Positions 14,665 to 57,745 of a stretch of DNA of 64,000 nucleotides are shown here, in pieces. Each line of letters starts with the position of its first letter. Positions within the stretch are counted from its first letter, which is position 1. The translations under genes were made by a program, and so were the position numbers. The notes beneath the pieces are model-generated. The model saw only the letters and a list, made by a program, of their open reading frames with translations. It was not told the origin of the DNA and made no database searches. Source of the DNA: Sphaerolaimus hirsutus (taxonomy: Eukaryota > Nematoda > Chromadorea > Monhysterida > Sphaerolaimidae); NCBI GenBank assembly GCA_964036195.1, contig OZ038454.1, forward strand, positions 26,522,315 through 26,586,314. Reading direction: 5' to 3'.

Positions 14665-14863
14665 GCCGCCTTGACGACACTATGCTCGCGGCCAACTCCA
14701 CCTTGAACGACAGCGACGCGGCCGCGTGCAGCTACGACCGGCAGTACTCGCCGCTGCAGACCGCCCTGCGCGTGTACATCATCGCGCCCGTGGCCGTGCT
14801 CGGCCTGGTCGCCAACGCCGCCAACATGCTCGTGTTCGCCGACGCCGGCATGAGACGCGCCAG
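14665..14863 (+). CDS. GPCR exon 1: N-terminus and TM1
   Basis: A splice-acceptor-like CCCTCAG ends at 14664, suggesting an upstream 5' UTR exon; coding starts at ATG 14682. The extracellular part has NST and NDS (possible N-glycosylation at NST) and a Cys, then TM1 (ALRVYIIAPVAVLGLVANAA). The exon ends ...MRRA plus two bases at CCAG|GTTGGA (phase 2). Confidence 0.75.
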
Positions 14864-17800
14864 GTTGGAGGTGGGGATGAGTGGTTTTGGAGTTTTGGAT
14901 AAGTGATTTGGAAAGGGGTAAGTGATTGGGAAGTTATAAGTGGTAAGTTAACTGATGAGTGTATTTCAATGACTATACTTGACACTTTACTTGACTAACC
15001 AGTTATAATTTGGCTTACCGCCTATGACATTGCATGCCTAATTGTCACTTTTCAACTAGCGGAAATGGCGCATAAACTCAAAAATCAGCTCTGAACACAC
15101 TCGAGTTGACTGGAATGAGTTTGTTGATCCCCATCAACTGGAGTTGACCAACATTTCATTTCAGTAAACTCAACTGTGTTTTCAAACCCTCTGTTCAAAA
15201 CTAGCATACATGCAGCCAAAGCACATTCACCTCCAAAAACTCGCATCTCAGAATCAACTGGTTCCTCCTCTCGCTGGCCGCCAGCGACACGGCCCTGCTC
15301 CTGTGCACGCTGGTCATGCTGCCCTCCCCGGTGGTGTCCGAGCGCCTCGAGCGGCCCTCCCTCATACAACACGCCGCCGTGCTTACCAGGGGCCTATCCC
15401 AGTCTCTGGAAAGTGATGTGTAAAGTGTAAAGTGTCATGTTAAGTGGCAAATGTTATGTAAAATGTCCTGGGAAATGTCAAACGGCCAGTCATAAAATTT
15501 TGACATTTGACAAAGGTTTGACATTTTTCAAGGCATTTTACATGACTTTAGACACTTTGCATGACATTTGACATTTTGTCATGGCCATTTCTCATCACTT
15601 TAGACACTTTGCATGATACTTAACACTTTACAAGGCACTTCACAGGGTCTGGGAGTAGCGCCAGATGGATGTATCCAATGGCGCACACGGTGCAGACGTG
15701 CAGCGTGTACCTGACGGTGGCGCTGAGCGTGTACAGGTACCTGGGCGTGTGCCGCCCTTTTTGGGCGCAGAGGAACGTCACTGCCGGTGGGGTCAGGTCT
15801 GTTGTTTGGGAATTGTGAGTTATGCTTTGTTGAAAATATGGTCCGCGCCCGCGGACAGCATAGCCTACATCCGCGCATACGACTTTATGCTCTAGCGACT
15901 TTACACCTTGCACCTTGAACCCTGGACACGTGCCAACTATATTTAACGCTCGATTTTCATAAAAAGTTGTAAAAATTCATTGTTGTTATAAAATTGTAAA
16001 TAGGTACCTATGTATAACTGGGCATTCACAACATGACTTTAAAAATCGCACGCTTTGATTTCCATTGGCACGATTCCAACGTGACATGAGCCAACCAACT
16101 TCCATCCGTTTCCAACAGACTGTCGCTGTGTCTTCTCTGCTCGCTTTCGGTGCTATACAACCTGCCGTGCTGGCTCGAGGTGGACACGCGCTGGTGCTAC
16201 TCCCAGACCCTGTAAAATGCCATGTGAAATGTGAAATGTCATGCAAAGTTTCTAAAGTTATGGAAAATTGCCAGCAAAATGTCAAATATCATGCAATGTG
16301 TCAAAAGTCATGTTAAATGCCCTGGAAATTGTCAAACTAACCTTTATTTTGTTACTGTCAGTTTGACATTTTCCAGAGCATTTTACATGACTTTTGACAC
16401 TTAGCATTACACCTGACATTTTCCAGGGCATTTTACATGACTTTTGACACTTTGCATAAACCTGACATTTTTCAGGGCATTTTACATGACTTTTGACACT
16501 TTGCATAACACTTGACATTTCCCAGGGCATTTTACATGACTTTTGACACTTTGCATAACACTTGACATTTTCCAGGACATTTTACAGTGTCTGGGAGTGC
16601 GCCCAGGTGCTACTCGGTCACCTACAACACGTCCATGCTGGAAGTGGTGCCGACCGCGCTGGCGGCGAACGCCATCTTTTTCGCGTCTTACCGAGTTTAC
16701 AGCTACATAGCCGTCATGTTTTGCGTCCCATTTGGGCTGCACATCATTTTGGGCTCTTGTATAATCAGTGCAGTTTTTCGATCTCGCGCGTGCCGTCGAA
16801 AAATGACCGGTACACCAAGAGATTTGGCTGTTAATGTGATACCGGTAAGTTTTGTGGTTTGCGTGCGTTTGGCTACAAATACAGTGATTTTTTCAATGCT
16901 ACTTAATAGCGATGTGGAATGTGCCAATAAAAATTTTGGCGGCGGGGCAGTTCGCTGGGTCGCACCCTGGAAAATATCAGAAACTGACAAAAGAAATTTG
17001 TGAAATGTGATGTGAAATGTAAAATGACATCTAAAGCCAAAAATTGTCCGTTTGACATTTGACGTTTGCCAAATCGCCGGAAGTTTAATATTTTACGTGG
17101 CGAGAAACTAGAACAATTCAATTTAGGTCGAACAATTCAGTAGGACCTCATCATTGAATCAGTCATCTGTTTTAAATCACTTCAAATCGCACGAAACGCA
17201 GGAAAATGCGTGCCTAAGCGGCGGCGTGAGTTTGGCGGCCAGCGACCAGGTGTCAATTTCTCAAGTGGACAAGAGACATGGAAAGTGGCAAGAAAAGTGA
17301 TAGGTTGTATTTCAAGACAAGTGACTAGTGTCATGGTGACAAGTAAATTTGTCACAGAATTGACTTGTCACTTGACTTGACCTACCACTTAACTTCACTA
17401 GCCACTTTCCCTGTCACTTGTTCACTTGCGGAATTAGCCCGGTGTGCTCGGCGATAGTGGGCCGGACGCACTCGAGCATTAGTCAACCAGCCGCCGCCGC
17501 GGCACAAAATCAAAGCACCAGTCAAGAAGCCAGGTGCCACTCCCGGACCCTGTGAAGTGTCCTGTAACATGTCAAATATCATGCAAAGTGTACAAAAGTC
17601 ATGTAAAATGTCCTGGAAAATGGGAAATCCCATGAAAAGTGTCCTCTCATCATGTAAAATACTCTGTAAAACGTTTGTCAATTTCCCGTACATTTCACAT
17701 GACTTTGGACACTTTGCATGGCATTTTACATTTTACATGACACTTTACATGGTTAGGGAGTGCCCCCAGTATCACGACCATGCTGCTCGCGGTCGCCGCG

Positions 17801-20800
17801 TTATTTCTCATGTGCAATTTACTCGCGTTTGTCAACAATATATACGAGATGGTCGCCAGGTGGGTTTGAGAATTTTGAGAATTGTTTTTTTTTGGGAATC
17901 GTGGGAACAAGTGATGTATTATAACGGCACTGGGAACCGGGAACTGAAGCTTGAAACTGAAGCCCTGATTACAGAATATGCAAAGTGAGAAAATTACTTT
18001 TAAGCATGAGTAAAAGTAGTAAAAGATACTGTTTTCTGGGAAATTTTTCCCGAGTAGGTACTTTTCCCTAGAATGTGTAAAAGCAAGGTACTTTCTTCAT
18101 ATAAAATTTCAAAGTAAGTACTTTTTCAAATAATTTAAAAGCAGGTATATTTTGGTGGAAAATGTTAAGTGAGTACTTTTGATATTTTTACACTGGATGC
18201 TTACCAGATATATTGTTGTATTCATTATGAGCACTTCTAGAGAATACATAACAGTGTAGTCACCTTATATGTCCTATATTGAAATTTTTGGAGGATATTT
18301 CCTGTACTCAGGTACTTGCCAACAGCAAATATGTGTAAAAGTGTGCACAGGTACTTATTCACAAAAAACGTACCGTATTACCTCTACTATAAGGTATACC
18401 TTATATTGTTTTCGTCAGATTTTTCGAGCCAAAAGTTATGCCTTGTATTAGAGGGTACCTTATATTTATTTCATCGCGTTCAAAATAGCCAAAAGTTATA
18501 CCTTATATTAGAGGGTACCTTACCGTATTACCTCGAATTATCCCCCCCCCTTGAATTAACCCCCCCTCGAATTAACCCCCCCTCAAAATGGGCTGGGGAA
18601 ATAATAAACCCCCCCCTCGAAATACCCCCCCTAAAATTGAGTGTAACGTGAACGTACATGACAAATACTGCAGTTTGTGATCTGTACAATGCAGAACACA
18701 CGTTAAAACTGATGGTTAAGTGACGTTAGGGAAGGGTTTTTGTGTATATACAGTTATATATGCCTATAAACACATATACATCTATGTAATTGTTCGATTT
18801 TTCTACGTCTGCGTATGGGAAATTTCCGAAAATTTCTGGCGAAATAATAGACCCCCCCCCCTCGAATAAACCCCCCCCTCGAATTATCCCCCCCTCAAAT
18901 TTTGCTGGCGAAATAATAAACCCCCTGGGGGTATTTCGAGGTAATACGGTAGTTTGTGTAGCTATCTACGTTTTTATGTCCAAGTATATCCTGTTTGGAC
19001 ACATTTATTACCTATTTTGGGTACGCAAATGCCTACTATTTACTACGATCCTTACGAAAATTTCTGACGAAATAATAAAACCCCCCCTCGAATAAACCCC
19101 CCCCTCGAATAAACCCCCCTCAAATTTTGCTGGCAAAATAATAAACCCCCATGGGGGTATTTCGAGGTAATACGGTATATTAGAGGGATGCCTTATATTG
19201 GAGGTAATACGGTGAGTGTATTTATCGAGTACTCGAGTATATGTATTTTTAGAGTAAATGTAAATATATTTAAACAACTAGGTATGTGGGCGTCGCAGAC
19301 ATTTACCGTATTTCCTCGAAATACCCCCGGGGGGTTTATTGTTTCAGAGTGAGAATTTTGAGGGGGGGTTAAACGAGGGGGGGGTATTTCGAGGGGGGGT
19401 TTATTATTTCGGCAGAAATTTTTTGAAAACCAAGTACTTAATTGTCGTCTGAAACGTACGCAGACGTCGAAAATGCAACAAAAATCGCCATTTACAAGAC
19501 TCTAAAGACTTGTATAAGTGTGTAGACGAATAATCACTGTTCTCACATAACAGAGTCATCGTTTTTAACGTGTGTTCTGCATTGCCCGGATGACAAACCG
19601 CAGCCTTTGTCATTTAAGTTCTCTATACACTCAATTGGGGGGGGGGGTATTTCGAGGGGGGGGGGGCTTTATAAGTTCATAGTGTCCATTTTGAGGGGGG
19701 GGGGTATTTCGAGGGTGGGGGTATTTCGAGGGGGGCGGTATTTCGAGGAAATACGGTATATGTGTTAAACTTCCCGTTGACTTGACATTGTCAAAGACAA
19801 GTAAAATTGAATCAACGCCTACAGTAAGACCTCTGCTCTTCGCAGAAAGAGCATTGCGCGCAGGTACAACGAGCAGCTGCAGATCATGTTGTACGGCGGC
19901 GACGCGTTCACCATGCTCGTCGAGCTGAGCAACCTGCTCGTCACTTTGAACGCTTCCGGAACGGCGCTTATTTATTACACTTTCATTGCCAAGTATAGGT
20001 TTGTTTTTGGGTGAGAATGTAGTCTACCTATGTTGTTTTATGGAACCTATTTTAGATGTTGTCTTGTTGAAGTGGCTGGAAAAGTTGCAAGTTACGAGAA
20101 TGCTTCTAACCGAGAAGAACAATTTGCATGGAGACTTTTATTCTAACATTGAAATTAACAATAAACTATTCTGCTGTTTAAACATTTATTTGTCACTCAA
20201 TCAAGTGTTGTAGCCCACTTTAAAGCAAATTATTTATTTTTAAAGTTTTTGTTGTACCACTGTTGTTTATTATAGGTTACAAGTGTTACAATGATAACCT
20301 TTTCAAGTTTTGCATGTATTTTGAATACCTATAAATCGTCAAATGTTTTTAACACTTTAGAACAGAAAAAACCCTCGAAATTACCCACAAAGTAAGTAAA
20401 ACCGGGTAAGTGCACATTTCCCACCCCCAAAAACACTCAAACCCCCAAAAACTCTTCCAATCAGAACAATAGTTCGGCGGCAGCTACAACGTGCCGCGTG
20501 CATGCATCTGTGGAAAAAGCGGCCATCGATAGACTCGGCGACGCCCGCGGACAGGAAAATCACCACCATGAGCATGTTGAACAGGAGCAAGAGCCTCGAG
20601 TCGGTCACCAGGGACCAGATTAAATTGGATGGATTTTTTGGGACTGCTCAAATGAGTGGCAATGGAATTGGGGGGATTTTGGATGGGTTTTTTAGAACGA
20701 GTCTTGGCAAGTGTCTTGCATTTTGCAAAATTGCGTACCGGCGTCAATACATAAATCCACATAGGACATCCGAATTTTTTCATAAAATTATTATTTATTC

Positions 20801-24583: not shown

Positions 24584-24780
24584 TAAATCATGTATCCCGG
24601 TCATAAATAACATTTTGTATACGTGTTATCGTAAACATCTCTGTTCTTGAAACAGTCTTCTACCGTAAGCAGAGCTAAAATAATGTAAATATGGTTTGTG
24701 CCGCCCGTAAATGTAGATGTAAATAAGTATACCCGCCAACAATCCATCGAAGTTTTCACGGAATTGAGATCCCTTCTCAG

Positions 24781-24964
24781 GTGCCAGTCCCGCGCCCTGT
24801 AAGTAGAGTGTCAAACGTCATGTAACGTATCATACAAATTTGACAAACTTCATGTAAAATGACAAATGTTCAGTATTGAAATCTTTTTTTATTTTTTTTA
24901 TTGCCATTTTACACGACATCTAACACATTACTTAACACTTTCCAGGGTGCGGCACTGCCCCCAG
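24781..24964. mobile_element. Intergenic copy of the introner-like CWG family
   Basis: Left terminus GTGCCAGTCCCGCGCCCTGT preceded by CAG (24778-24780); right terminus CAGGGTGCGGCACTGCCCC followed by CAG (24962-24964). Same layout as the GPCR intron copies, including a GT start and CAG end, but I see no exons on either side. Confidence 0.75.
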
Positions 24965-42315: not shown

Positions 42316-42318
42316 CAT

Positions 42319-42526
42319 TGGGCAGTGACCCTGTGAAATGCCTTGTAAAATGTCAGCATAGTGTCAAAAGTCATATAAAATGGAAAATGTCATGCAAAGT
42401 GTCAAAAGTCATGTAAAATGCCCTGAAAAACAACAGTCGTACGTTCCATCCCAGTGCATTTTATAAATATGATTTTAGACACTCTGCGTGACATTTGACA
42501 TTTTACAGGGTCCGGGATTGTCCCAT
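42319..42526. mobile_element. Intergenic copy of the introner-like family, CAT-flanked
   Basis: Left TGGGCAGTGACCCTGTGAAA, right ACAGGGTCCGGGATTGTCC, flanked by CAT (42316-42318 and 42524-42526). The interior has GTCAAAAGTCATGTAAAATG units like the GPCR intron copies. Confidence 0.65.
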
Positions 42527-47799: not shown

Positions 47800-50403
47800 T
47801 TAGCCTGGATTCCACTGGGTGCTGGAGCTAAGCCTTGCCTTGTGCTTGCGGCGCATGCAGGGCTCGCCCCGAAAGTTGGTCACCAGTTGACCATCGGATT
47901 TTCCAGGGTTCACCAACACGAACTCGGCATGTGGTGAAACGCGTTTGGCAGAATTGCGAAAACATTTGGAGGCAGACTTTTTGCGTGGGGGCCTGCCGTA
48001 GACCTTGCTGCCCTTGGCGCGTGGCAGTGTAGCGGGCTTCGACGAGTGCGATTTCCGAATGCCAGTAATTGGCGCCAATTCACGATGTGATAGTTTAGTG
48101 ACCACCGATTGTGTTAGCATTTCCCCCTTAGTTGGAGACCGGCAGGCGCGAATCGATTCACCCATGGCCCTGGGCGTGAAATTGGCTTCGAGTCGCTGGA
48201 GCTCAGAAATAGCTGTGCGATTCATTTTTAGAGTGCCATAGAGTGCCTCGTGGCCAAATAAAAGCGGGCTCAATGTGCGCGGGAAGTGTGATTTCCGTTT
48301 AACCACAGCCCAGATGTCTGCCGATTGCTGTTGTCCACCAGGTGTGGTATGCAACAAATGCATTCTGTAGAGCTCCAGGTGATGCCCTGGAATCGGCTTG
48401 CCGGCAGTCCCCAAAGCTGAATCAGGGTATGACCGGTACTTTGCCTTCTCCATGCTGGCATTGCACTGTGCTCGTTTCCAAACATCCTCGAGCAGGTGCT
48501 CCTCGATGATGATCCCCTCCTCACAGCCACTATCGAGTGTGCCTGTGAGCGTGCAGCCCATGAAGTCCACCTTGGCCAGTGGGCGATCACAGTGGGCGTG
48601 TTGCACACTTGACGGGTTCATGGTGCAACCCATCTGCTTGTGAGCTGCGTAGCCGCTAGGGAACCACGTTTCAAAATCATCGGGCTCGGGCTCGGAATCG
48701 GATGGCGGATTAGAAACATTTTTAGTCAATTTAGTAGACGGATTACCACTAGGTTCAGTGTCAGATTCAGGGGCACTATAGATGTGCTCATCCACTTTCA
48801 GATTGAGTTTGCCACACTCAATGCGCATATTTTTCTGAGCATCGTGCTCAGTCTTGCCGGCCTTACGCAGGAAGTCTCGGGCTCGTTCCGCCCGATCCAG
48901 TCGATAGGCAGGAGAATCAGGATTCAAATAGCATTTTGCCGGCTCATGCGGCATGGGTGCACGATGCATGAAATAGGTGCACCATGGACCCTGATGCGTC
49001 ATTGGGTCAAATTTTGACTGCCTATCCCAGCCATCATTTCGACTGCCAGATCGACCCGAGGCATTTCTGGATGCAGCCACAGCTGGTGGGTTGTTGGACC
49101 ATGCAGTATTTCCACCGTTCGATGGATTCGGTGCACGATTAGCATTACGCTGCTCATTTTGTTCAGCCCGATAATGCAGATTTTCCTCTCGCGTGATGTC
49201 GAGGCGTCCAACGGCATCAGCCAATTCGATCTGACCATCTTGCCATTTCTCGCGCCACGGATACCAAAGAGACATTGGCAACATTCCTCCAATCTCAAGG
49301 AACAATTTATCGCCAATCATTTTCTCACGTTGTGAGTCGTCAATCTGCTCACTAATATAGTGGAATGTGCTGCACAATCTGCTGTACAGGGTGGCCACAG
49401 AATCAGTAGGTTTAGCCGAAATTCGATACCACTCAGCGACCGAATGCGCCTTGCGGTCCACTTGAAAAACACGAGCCAATTTGTCGAGAACATAAAGCAC
49501 GGTGTTGCGCTTGTCCAGGCGAATAGAAATGTAGTGCGCCTGTGCGCTTCCCTTCAAACATTGCTGGAAAACATTGGTCCAGAACAAATGTTGGTATGGC
49601 GGGGGAACGTTCAGAGCCTGTAGCGCCACATTGTGAAGCCAAAATTTAAAGGGCCCCGATGGCGCGCTCGAATCCCCGTTGAATGGTGTCTGCTTGCTAG
49701 CGACGGTGGCTACATGGCCGCCACTCATGCGATCACTGGAGGAAATTTGTGCCAGCGCATCCACGAGCGACGGAAAGCCATCAGCCGGGACCATGACATA
49801 TTGGTCAATGTAGGCAGCAATTTGACCAATCAAACCGCCAGGCGATGATGACACAGCCTGCAACCTCGCTTCAGTTGAATCAAGTGGCTGGTTATTAGAT
49901 GTAGTAGCGGGGGTCCTCAATGGACAATGATTGTTTGCGCCAGGTACCGGTATTGAGTGCGAACCCGCGGGCGCATTTTGGACCAGTGCCGTATGTGCCG
50001 GCACCTCTTGTGAAGCCAATTGTTGGGCGATTGCAGCCGGGAGTTGTTGGATAGCTGACAAAAGATCGACCATTGTCGGTGCTGCAGTTGGCTGGACAGC
50101 GGCGACACCTTGAGGCAGCATGGGGTCGTCCCCAATGCCTCTGGGTGGTACTTGATCATCCAGGTCAAGCACCAATTCTAATACGGTGTTTGCATCTGTG
50201 AAATATAGATCCATGCACTGCCACACATGCCGAATCAATGGCCCAGTTCCGAGGTGGGGTGGATCACTAATCGTAGGCCACTCATTGTCATCAACTCGAA
50301 ACTGCAAAAGCACGCTTAGCAAACGCAGCAATTTCTGCCGCTCAGTGTGCTCAACCCACGACTCGACGATCGGTTCCAGTTCCACTCGCGTATATTGCGA
50401 CAT
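47800..50403 (-). CDS. Retrotransposon gag-protease polyprotein (867 aa)
   Basis: Structural protein of the LTR element with a fused protease. Residues about 250-420 fit a retrotransposon gag core (KFWLHNVALQAL...WYPWREKWQDG). A zinc-knuckle-like CX4HX5HX4C follows at 475-491 (CTYFMH...HEPAKC). At about 610-640 lies a retropepsin-like active site, GTLDSGCEEGIIIEEHLL, where the usual Ala after DSG is Cys; Gly-rich and basic segments close the protein. The frame is intact. ATG at 50403 is the first in frame, after a leader of nearly 900 bases. No reverse transcriptase motif is present in any frame of the element. Confidence 0.85.
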   Translation of the reverse strand: MSQYTRVELEPIVESWVEHTERQKLLRLLSVLLQFRVDDNEWPTISDPPHLGTGPLIRHVWQCMDLYFTDANTVLELVLDLDDQVPPRGIGDDPMLPQGVAAVQPTAAPTMVDLLSAIQQLPAAIAQQLASQEVPAHTALVQNAPAGSHSIPVPGANNHCPLRTPATTSNNQPLDSTEARLQAVSSSPGGLIGQIAAYIDQYVMVPADGFPSLVDALAQISSSDRMSGGHVATVASKQTPFNGDSSAPSGPFKFWLHNVALQALNVPPPYQHLFWTNVFQQCLKGSAQAHYISIRLDKRNTVLYVLDKLARVFQVDRKAHSVAEWYRISAKPTDSVATLYSRLCSTFHYISEQIDDSQREKMIGDKLFLEIGGMLPMSLWYPWREKWQDGQIELADAVGRLDITREENLHYRAEQNEQRNANRAPNPSNGGNTAWSNNPPAVAASRNASGRSGSRNDGWDRQSKFDPMTHQGPWCTYFMHRAPMPHEPAKCYLNPDSPAYRLDRAERARDFLRKAGKTEHDAQKNMRIECGKLNLKVDEHIYSAPESDTEPSGNPSTKLTKNVSNPPSDSEPEPDDFETWFPSGYAAHKQMGCTMNPSSVQHAHCDRPLAKVDFMGCTLTGTLDSGCEEGIIIEEHLLEDVWKRAQCNASMEKAKYRSYPDSALGTAGKPIPGHHLELYRMHLLHTTPGGQQQSADIWAVVKRKSHFPRTLSPLLFGHEALYGTLKMNRTAISELQRLEANFTPRAMGESIRACRSPTKGEMLTQSVVTKLSHRELAPITGIRKSHSSKPATLPRAKGSKVYGRPPRKKSASKCFRNSAKRVSPHAEFVLVNPGKSDGQLVTNFRGEPCMRRKHKARLSSSTQWNPG

Positions 50404-50649
50404 GTTAGAAAATGTGGGGTCACTAAATCTGCACTAGCACAATTTGGTGCAAATATGGTGCAGGAGTGGCCACACACAACTGGAGCAGTCGAGCATTTGA
50501 GTGGCAAAGTACACTCAAAATTGATGCAACAATTGGCGCGTCCAGTGGCGCACTGCGGCCAGCAAGTGGGCGTGCAATTCCGTCACGCTGACGCAGCAAA
50601 AACGTTTGGCGCCAATGGCCAACAAATTGGAACAGGGCCAAGCGCCTAC

Positions 50650-51796: not shown

Positions 51797-52165
51797 GGGG
51801 AATCACAAGCCCAGTATAATGTAAAGTAAAGTGTGAAATGTAAAGTCAAATGTAAAGTCAATCGTCATTTGTCATGCAAAGCGTCAAATGTTAAGTCAAA
51901 TGTAAAGTAAAGTGTCAATTGTACAAATTTTTTTGTAAAGTTAAGTGTTAATTATACAAATCTTTTTTGTATCCAAATCTAATATTTTGTATCGAAATCT
52001 TACTATTCGACATAAGATTTTGATACAAAAACAAGATTTGGATACACATTTGACACTTTACTTTACATTTGACATTTCACTGTACATTTGACACTTGACT
52101 TTGCACTTTACTTCACATTTGAAACTTTAATTTACACTTTACAGGGCTTGGGGGATTGCAACCAG
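51797..52165. mobile_element. Intergenic copy of the introner-like family
   Basis: Left end GGGGAATCACAAGCCC after CAG (51794-51796), right end GGGCTTGGGGGATTGCAAC before CAG (52163-52165). The interior has AAATGTAAAGTCAA arrays and a central inverted TTGTATCCAAATCT / AGATTTGGATACA pair, also found at 63770-63890. Confidence 0.65.
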
Positions 52166-57663: not shown

Positions 57664-57745
57664 TCTGGTGCCAATCTCAGACACTGTAAAATGCCTTGTT
57701 TAATGGAAAACGTACGTTTGCCATTTTCCAGGGCGTTGTACATGA
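57664..57745. repeat. Truncated copy of the introner-like family
   Basis: CTGGTGCCAATCTCAGACACTG then TAAAATGCC at the left, GCCATTTTCCAGGGCG and TACATGACTTT after it; no right terminus. Confidence 0.5.

Follow-up and report, generated by a model that had tools for sequence, protein, structure and literature searches.

Candidate introners in a nematode: three introns of a GPCR gene coincide with copies of one foldback transposon family

Three introns of a modelled GPCR gene in Sphaerolaimus hirsutus are, with a probability that we estimate at about 0.9, insertions of short non-autonomous foldback MITEs acting as introners. The gene lies in a stretch of 64,000 nucleotides, here called the window, in which whole foldback transposons had been proposed from the sequence as candidate introners in an animal. 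We show the anatomy of the elements, their target duplication and the exact borders that they have in the gene models. Further support for the proposal came from copies with CWG (CAG or CTG) flanks throughout the genome, from modelled introns in other genes and from paralogues that are intron-free at the corresponding sites, all of which we show as well. Our confidence was slightly lowered because exact borders elsewhere were tested in one way only.

We propose that a transposase acting in trans would insert the element at CWG and thereby duplicate these three bases. The element is usually polar, having one GT end and one GG end, and one orientation alone could supply a donor. Where the coding strand reads CAG and the GT end lies upstream, the transcript would read CAG/GT...CAG/ (slashes marking splice borders), with the 5' splice site taken from the element and the acceptor AG from the second target copy. 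Splicing would then remove the element plus one target copy and restore the earlier coding sequence, whatever the phase. From the gene models we infer that splicing takes place at the modelled borders, and the element may be moved by a PHIS/NuwaI-like transposase.

The GPCR gene and its product

The FMRFamide-receptor-like GPCR gene was modelled at 14682-20702 on the plus strand, with ten exons and nine introns; the end of the last exon is provisional. Exons 1-5 are located at 14682-14863, 15252-15389, 15665-15796, 16119-16193 and 16607-16844, and exons 6-10 at 17202-17251, 17438-17533, 17770-17859, 19846-19998 and 20465-20702. When the three elements, named E1, E2 and E3, were cut out exactly, this ten-exon model resulted in a product of 464 aa that matched the Pfam family 7tm_1 (E 4.2e-15). 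The product shared 32-33% identity with two nematode proteins, the sole two at E <= 0.001 among 7991 candidates scored. In the alignment to these relatives the seams of E1, E2 and E3 were free of indels, the closest gap being situated five residues upstream of E3. After excision the seam residues read EAS/ITTM (E1), TRW/CYSV (E2) and LTR/WMYP (E3), just as predicted, and the coding frame is joined. A Pfam search with a single 43-aa exon gave no matches, nor did an Rfam search of the window.

Phase 2, usually the rarest intron phase, was observed in eight of the nine modelled GPCR introns, and AG ends most of the upstream exons. Several of the introns in this gene are possibly decayed insertions at CAG.

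Anatomy of the three element-introns

All three elements were read on the plus strand. E1 occupies 15390-15661 and is a foldback element with its GG-type end upstream; together with the CAG at its 3' side (15662-15664) it forms the intron 15390-15664, and the exon-side copy of the CAG is found at 15387-15389. E2 occupies 16194-16603 (intron 16194-16606) between a CTG on the exon side (16191-16193) and a CAG on the acceptor side (16604-16606), while E3 at 17534-17766 (intron 17534-17769) has CAG on both the exon side (17531-17533) and the acceptor side (17767-17769). The intron coordinates in the original prediction were exact to the base. E1, E2 and E3 belong to one family of foldback elements; all three are complete and have common terminal inverted repeats and AAATGTC/GACATTT interiors, a likeness that had been noticed beforehand and was confirmed here. 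Once the 3-bp duplicate was set apart, the six termini aligned without gaps over 65 nt and had a common end base, which agrees with the earlier claim that element ends fall on the exon junctions and fits the GPCR model.

To score the inverted repeats, the two 60-nt ends of every one of the nine GPCR introns were compared with each other, using 500 shuffles. The end inverted repeat scored above all 500 shuffles in four of the nine, namely E1 (30), E2 (35), E3 (35) and the intron 17252-17437 (30), with shuffle maxima of 15-19. Intron 16845-17201 was borderline with a score of 15, equalled by 2/500 shuffles; for intron 14864-15251 the repeat was equalled by 17/500, and the remaining three introns had ordinary ends. 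The RNA folding z-scores were -17.0 for E2, -11.3 for E1 and -10.3 for E3.

The predicted splice sites held for E2 and E3, in both of which the first dinucleotide of the element is the donor GT. For E1 the donor dinucleotide was corrected to GG. An in-frame canonical GT is present at 15400, and its use would add four codons; according to the gene model the E1 intron would either use the donor at 15400 or be a non-canonical GG-AG intron. Measured against GTRAGT, the usual standard, GTGCCA is a weak donor. The claim that the family inserts at CAG was right about the duplication and too narrow about the target, which is CWG: CAG suits splicing, and E2 is flanked by CTG and CAG. The simplest inference from this mismatch is a base change after the insertion. 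It was also observed that the nine bases GTGCTACTC with which E2 starts (16194-16202) recur at the start of the next exon (16607-16615), an identity that may come from chance, target choice or conversion.

Copies, target and polarity across the genome

Allowing up to 3 mismatches, the terminus pattern had 15,700 matches (7912 + 7788) in the 348.5-Mb assembly, and the reversed pattern had 1. A scan of the viral contigs with the terminus pattern gave no matches. We sampled 30 loci by their similarity to E2 and then twenty stretches of 9.9 kb (13 new matches and 7 enlarged loci); with the window included and contained loci dropped, the sample consisted of 43 sequences with 334,575 bp. The first pairing of ends gave 41 elements and missed one copy in locus L037, and a looser pairing gave 53. 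Both sets contain repeats, as loci L003 and L005 overlap, so that one copy occurs twice, and some copies lie in duplicated DNA; three non-genic repeats were dropped in the comparison of CAG orientation only. The 53 complete elements from the 43 sequences, window included, were 122-782 bp long with a median of 314.

Identical 3-mers flanked 32/53 elements at the predicted boundary, as compared with a mean of 15.1 and a maximum of 25 in 2000 permutations; the other 21/53 were without identical flanking 3-mers. CWG accounted for 29 of the 32 identical pairs, i.e. 29/53, and where both flanks were CWG they were concordant in 29/32. In the 41-element set 21/41 had CWG on both sides at offset 0, and none did at any of the 12 other offsets. 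At offset -5, a position within the inverted repeats, identical 3-mers were found in 31/41 and none of them was CWG. One GT end and one GG end were combined in 37/53 elements. Among the 92 termini, which were picked by their match to the model, position 1 was G in 92/92, position 2 was T in 54 and G in 38, and position 3 was G in 92/92. The GT end begins GTGCCACTCCC.

These data bear on the question whether the introns spread as RNA by reverse splicing and not by DNA transposition, an idea that the coincidence of copies with modelled introns in several genes would fit. Yet 44 of the 53 copies, those not recognised as genic in a Pfam scan covering 9/98 joined frames, have ends and CWG duplicates of the same kind, on either strand, and the inverted repeats together with the polarity fit a cut-and-paste element. 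Furthermore, the fungal introner-like elements that have been read as RNA-based are without inverted repeats and duplications, according to the part of PMC9860276 available here. We give hardly any credence to reverse splicing and retain DNA insertion as the explanation.

The tandem duplicates L051 and L044:4630-5618 have a common element-intron that differs mainly by an internal repeat of about 200 bp. Judged from the sequences, interior repeat arrays seem to expand or contract after insertion.

Introns in other genes

To find element-introns in other genes, each element was removed together with one duplicate and the joined frame was searched with Pfam. Ten proteins chosen by eye were scanned (9/98 spanning frames and one cut-down frame) and 3/10 matched above the cut-off; the genic counts are therefore minimums. 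In an inward-rectifier (Kir) channel in L032 the IRK domain was continuous across the excised element (E 8e-27). The same was found for Neur_chan_LBD in a Cys-loop receptor in L044 (E 1.5e-14) and for MFS_1 in a VMAT-like transporter in L028, which was named by eye (E 2.9e-17). A TIL-like frame in L045 matched weakly, below the cut-off (E 0.009), and an ADAM-like gene in L037, also named by eye and containing two elements, had no Pfam match in its segments. The two ADAM-like segments align only weakly (E 0.001), giving a hint that each may be without the other's intron. On the basis of these models introns would account for at least 3 and perhaps as many as 6 among the 49 complete elements located outside the window.

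Six copies outside the window were taken as genic, three of them being supported by Pfam weakly or not at all, and in 6/6 the GT end is upstream and the arrangement is CAG/GT...CAG/. For five copies outside the GPCR gene the intron phases were 2, 0, 0, 1 and 1. Since the phases differ, the place of insertion depends on the target rather than on the codon. Copies that have a single GT end and concordant CWG flanks were read with the GT end first; their flanks are then CAG in 6/6 genic against 6/15 non-genic copies (Fisher one-sided p 0.017), 3/6 of the genic copies being poorly supported. Such an excess is expected if CAG alone yields an acceptor. The orientation and CAG pattern among the copies taken as genic would also result if there were no adaptation to splicing at all, i.e. 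if a high-copy CWG transposon inserted in exons and the splice-compatible insertions alone survived. Nothing decisive speaks against this view, which is compatible with insertion of introner-like MITEs, and we consider the odds for it to be even.

In the non-GPCR genes exact excision was the sole join tested for borders. The length of the open frame was tried as an unbiased coding test and rejected, as it poorly separated correct from shifted joins. Frames of at least 80 aa across the join were found in 37/53 correct joins versus 29 and 29 shifted ones; the corresponding numbers were 22/53 versus 21 and 22 for at least 100 aa, and 19/53 versus 11 and 14 for at least 120 aa. As this test was nearly uninformative, we turned to Pfam and to the comparison of paralogues.

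Paralogues and intron gain

With the Cys-loop query (83 aa), 9/9 other loci were continuous at the site, one of them with an internal stop, and the DNA lengths leave no room for an intron. The sequence of the Cys-loop paralogue L052 was read and is continuous at the site, and the tandem duplicate C2:8776018 (96% identity) has an intron at the same place. For Kir 5/5 other loci were continuous, one with an internal stop, and L053 was read; for the VMAT-like gene 1/1 paralogue was continuous. At the E2 site 4/4 paralogous loci were continuous (two with internal stops), and at the E3 site 2/2, of which C14 was read and has kept the CAG at the same codon position. Since stop codons occur in several of these paralogues, some may be pseudogenes. 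The sequence comparisons indicate that the introns at the E2, E3, Kir, Cys-loop and VMAT-like sites are gains; absence from the paralogues could in principle also be intron loss.

At the E1 site the C14 paralogue contains the unbroken sequence ACCAGATGG, identical to the joined flanks of E1, and six loci (C14 and five further matches) are uninterrupted. The C16 paralogue has an apparent intron that ends at the E1 codon and phase, and the match at C9:27348859 likewise begins at codon 106. By nhmmer no element was found in the stretch of about 140 nt read upstream of this C16 site. An intron at the same position without the element had been named as evidence against the original prediction, and it was encountered in part, for E1 only. 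Because of this apparent C16 intron, a clean gain cannot be asserted for E1; the element may have inserted in parallel, at a proto-splice site that was used more than once, or may have taken over an intron already present there.

More generally, the three introns could be ordinary old introns, later invaded by a transposon that expanded to fill them. The C16 paralogue, in which an apparent intron occupies the E1 position and the search near the 3' end of that intron gave no element, fits this explanation, as does the non-canonical donor of E1. In contrast, the ends of each of the three elements coincide with both exon borders in the GPCR model, target duplicates form the flanks, and paralogues are intron-free at the E2, E3, Kir, Cys-loop and VMAT-like sites. 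We consider the invasion of old introns very unlikely and prefer insertion of the element into the exon.

Comparison with known systems

Foldback and MITE elements are short, have long inverted repeats and are present in many copies. The element studied here is alike in shortness, long inverted repeats and copy number, and no coding capacity was seen in it. Insertion of an ordinary MITE disrupts a coding exon, whereas the copies here are placed so as to be spliceable.

Introners are described, in the part of Gozashti et al. 2022 (PMC9860276) available here, as introns in many genes that are similar up to the splice borders and have inverted repeats and target duplications. Those of Chrysochromulina carry one splice site and co-opt the other at the insertion site (PMC9860276). 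In the same text introners are known in two animal groups only, and copepods were the sole match among the animal names searched (PMC9860276). Our elements are like these introners in their borders, inverted repeats, duplications, carried donor and co-opted acceptor, and they differ in the CWG duplication and the polarity of GT end and GG end. Likeness from border to border across genes was found in gene models for the three GPCR introns, Kir, Cys-loop and VMAT-like, and it is possible that the ADAM-like and TIL-like genes have exact element-introns as well. The signature of mobility, consisting of inverted repeats and target duplication, is present. An assignment of the family to introners is supported.

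For the origin of the family NuwaI is a lead. This member of PHIS (PIF/Harbinger-ISL2EU-Spy) has a 3-bp CWG duplication and a terminal inverted repeat that usually begins GGG, and in that survey it occurs in animals only, as given in the part of PMC4482050 available here. Compared by ends and duplication, the target of our family resembles that of PHIS/NuwaI: the CWG duplication is alike, and the GGG-like ends may be. Different from NuwaI, one end here is GTG, and the making of introns is absent from the description of NuwaI in that part of PMC4482050. The word Harbinger is absent from the main text of PMC9860276, as far as available, and no Harbinger or NuwaI introner was noticed in the literature searched, subscription journals and preprints lying outside it. 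DDE_Tnp_4, the transposase domain of PIF/Harbinger type, had 163 matches in the genome, with 150 of 306 candidates scored. Dozens of DDE_Tnp_4 copies across the assembly have nearly identical scores. These sequences suggest that a PIF/Harbinger-type family has recently been active in the genome.

Scale and significance

By extrapolation, introns derived from this family may number about a thousand or more, if 6-12% of the copies are introns, as estimated from a small sample similar to E2, and if the terminus matches approximate the number of elements. We tentatively suggest, and with more doubt than conviction, that a polar family of PHIS/NuwaI type, whose CWG target equals the exon-side splice consensus, has made about a thousand introns and that several transposon families drive intron gain. 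The intron 17252-17437 is an instance of a second transposon family in the same gene.

Introners are found in many protists, algae and fungi and in very few animal groups, according to the part of PMC9860276 available here. In this one genome the route from transposon to intron can be followed base by base, through target motif, polarity, filled site and empty paralogue site. The preference of the transposase would give a simple reason for new introns at CAG/G, namely that it inserts there. With thousands of copies, intron gain, the orientation filter and the cost of a new intron would be testable in an animal.

Other elements in the window

Further copies of the family were found on the plus strand of the window. 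A complete copy at 24781-24961 lies in surroundings that are gene-free as far as recognised and has CAG flanks on both sides (24778-24780 and 24962-24964). A diverged copy at 51797-52162, with no gene recognised nearby, has CAG on both sides as read by eye and is outside the 53-element set. The left end of a truncated copy is present at 57668-57710 with a CTG flank, and a degraded copy at 42318-42524 has approximate borders without clear CWG flanks. A further diverged stretch of AAATGT/ACATTT type was seen at about 16999-17085 in intron 5 of the GPCR gene (16845-17201). An 877-aa open frame on the minus strand at 47800-50433 is possibly retroelement-derived and had no Pfam matches above the cut-off.

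The modelled intron 6 of the GPCR gene (17252-17437, plus strand) consists of a foldback element from another family, located at about 17254-17437. An imperfect repeat of 8 bp lies on its two sides, CCAGGTGT (17246-17253) and CCCGGTGT (17438-17445). In this candidate target duplication, which would be a hAT-like trait, 7/8 bases agree, as observed for a single copy. When intron 6 is spliced in the in-frame model, the product has two codons more than the inferred empty site. Three further matches to the terminus of intron 6 were found, in loci L033 and L044.
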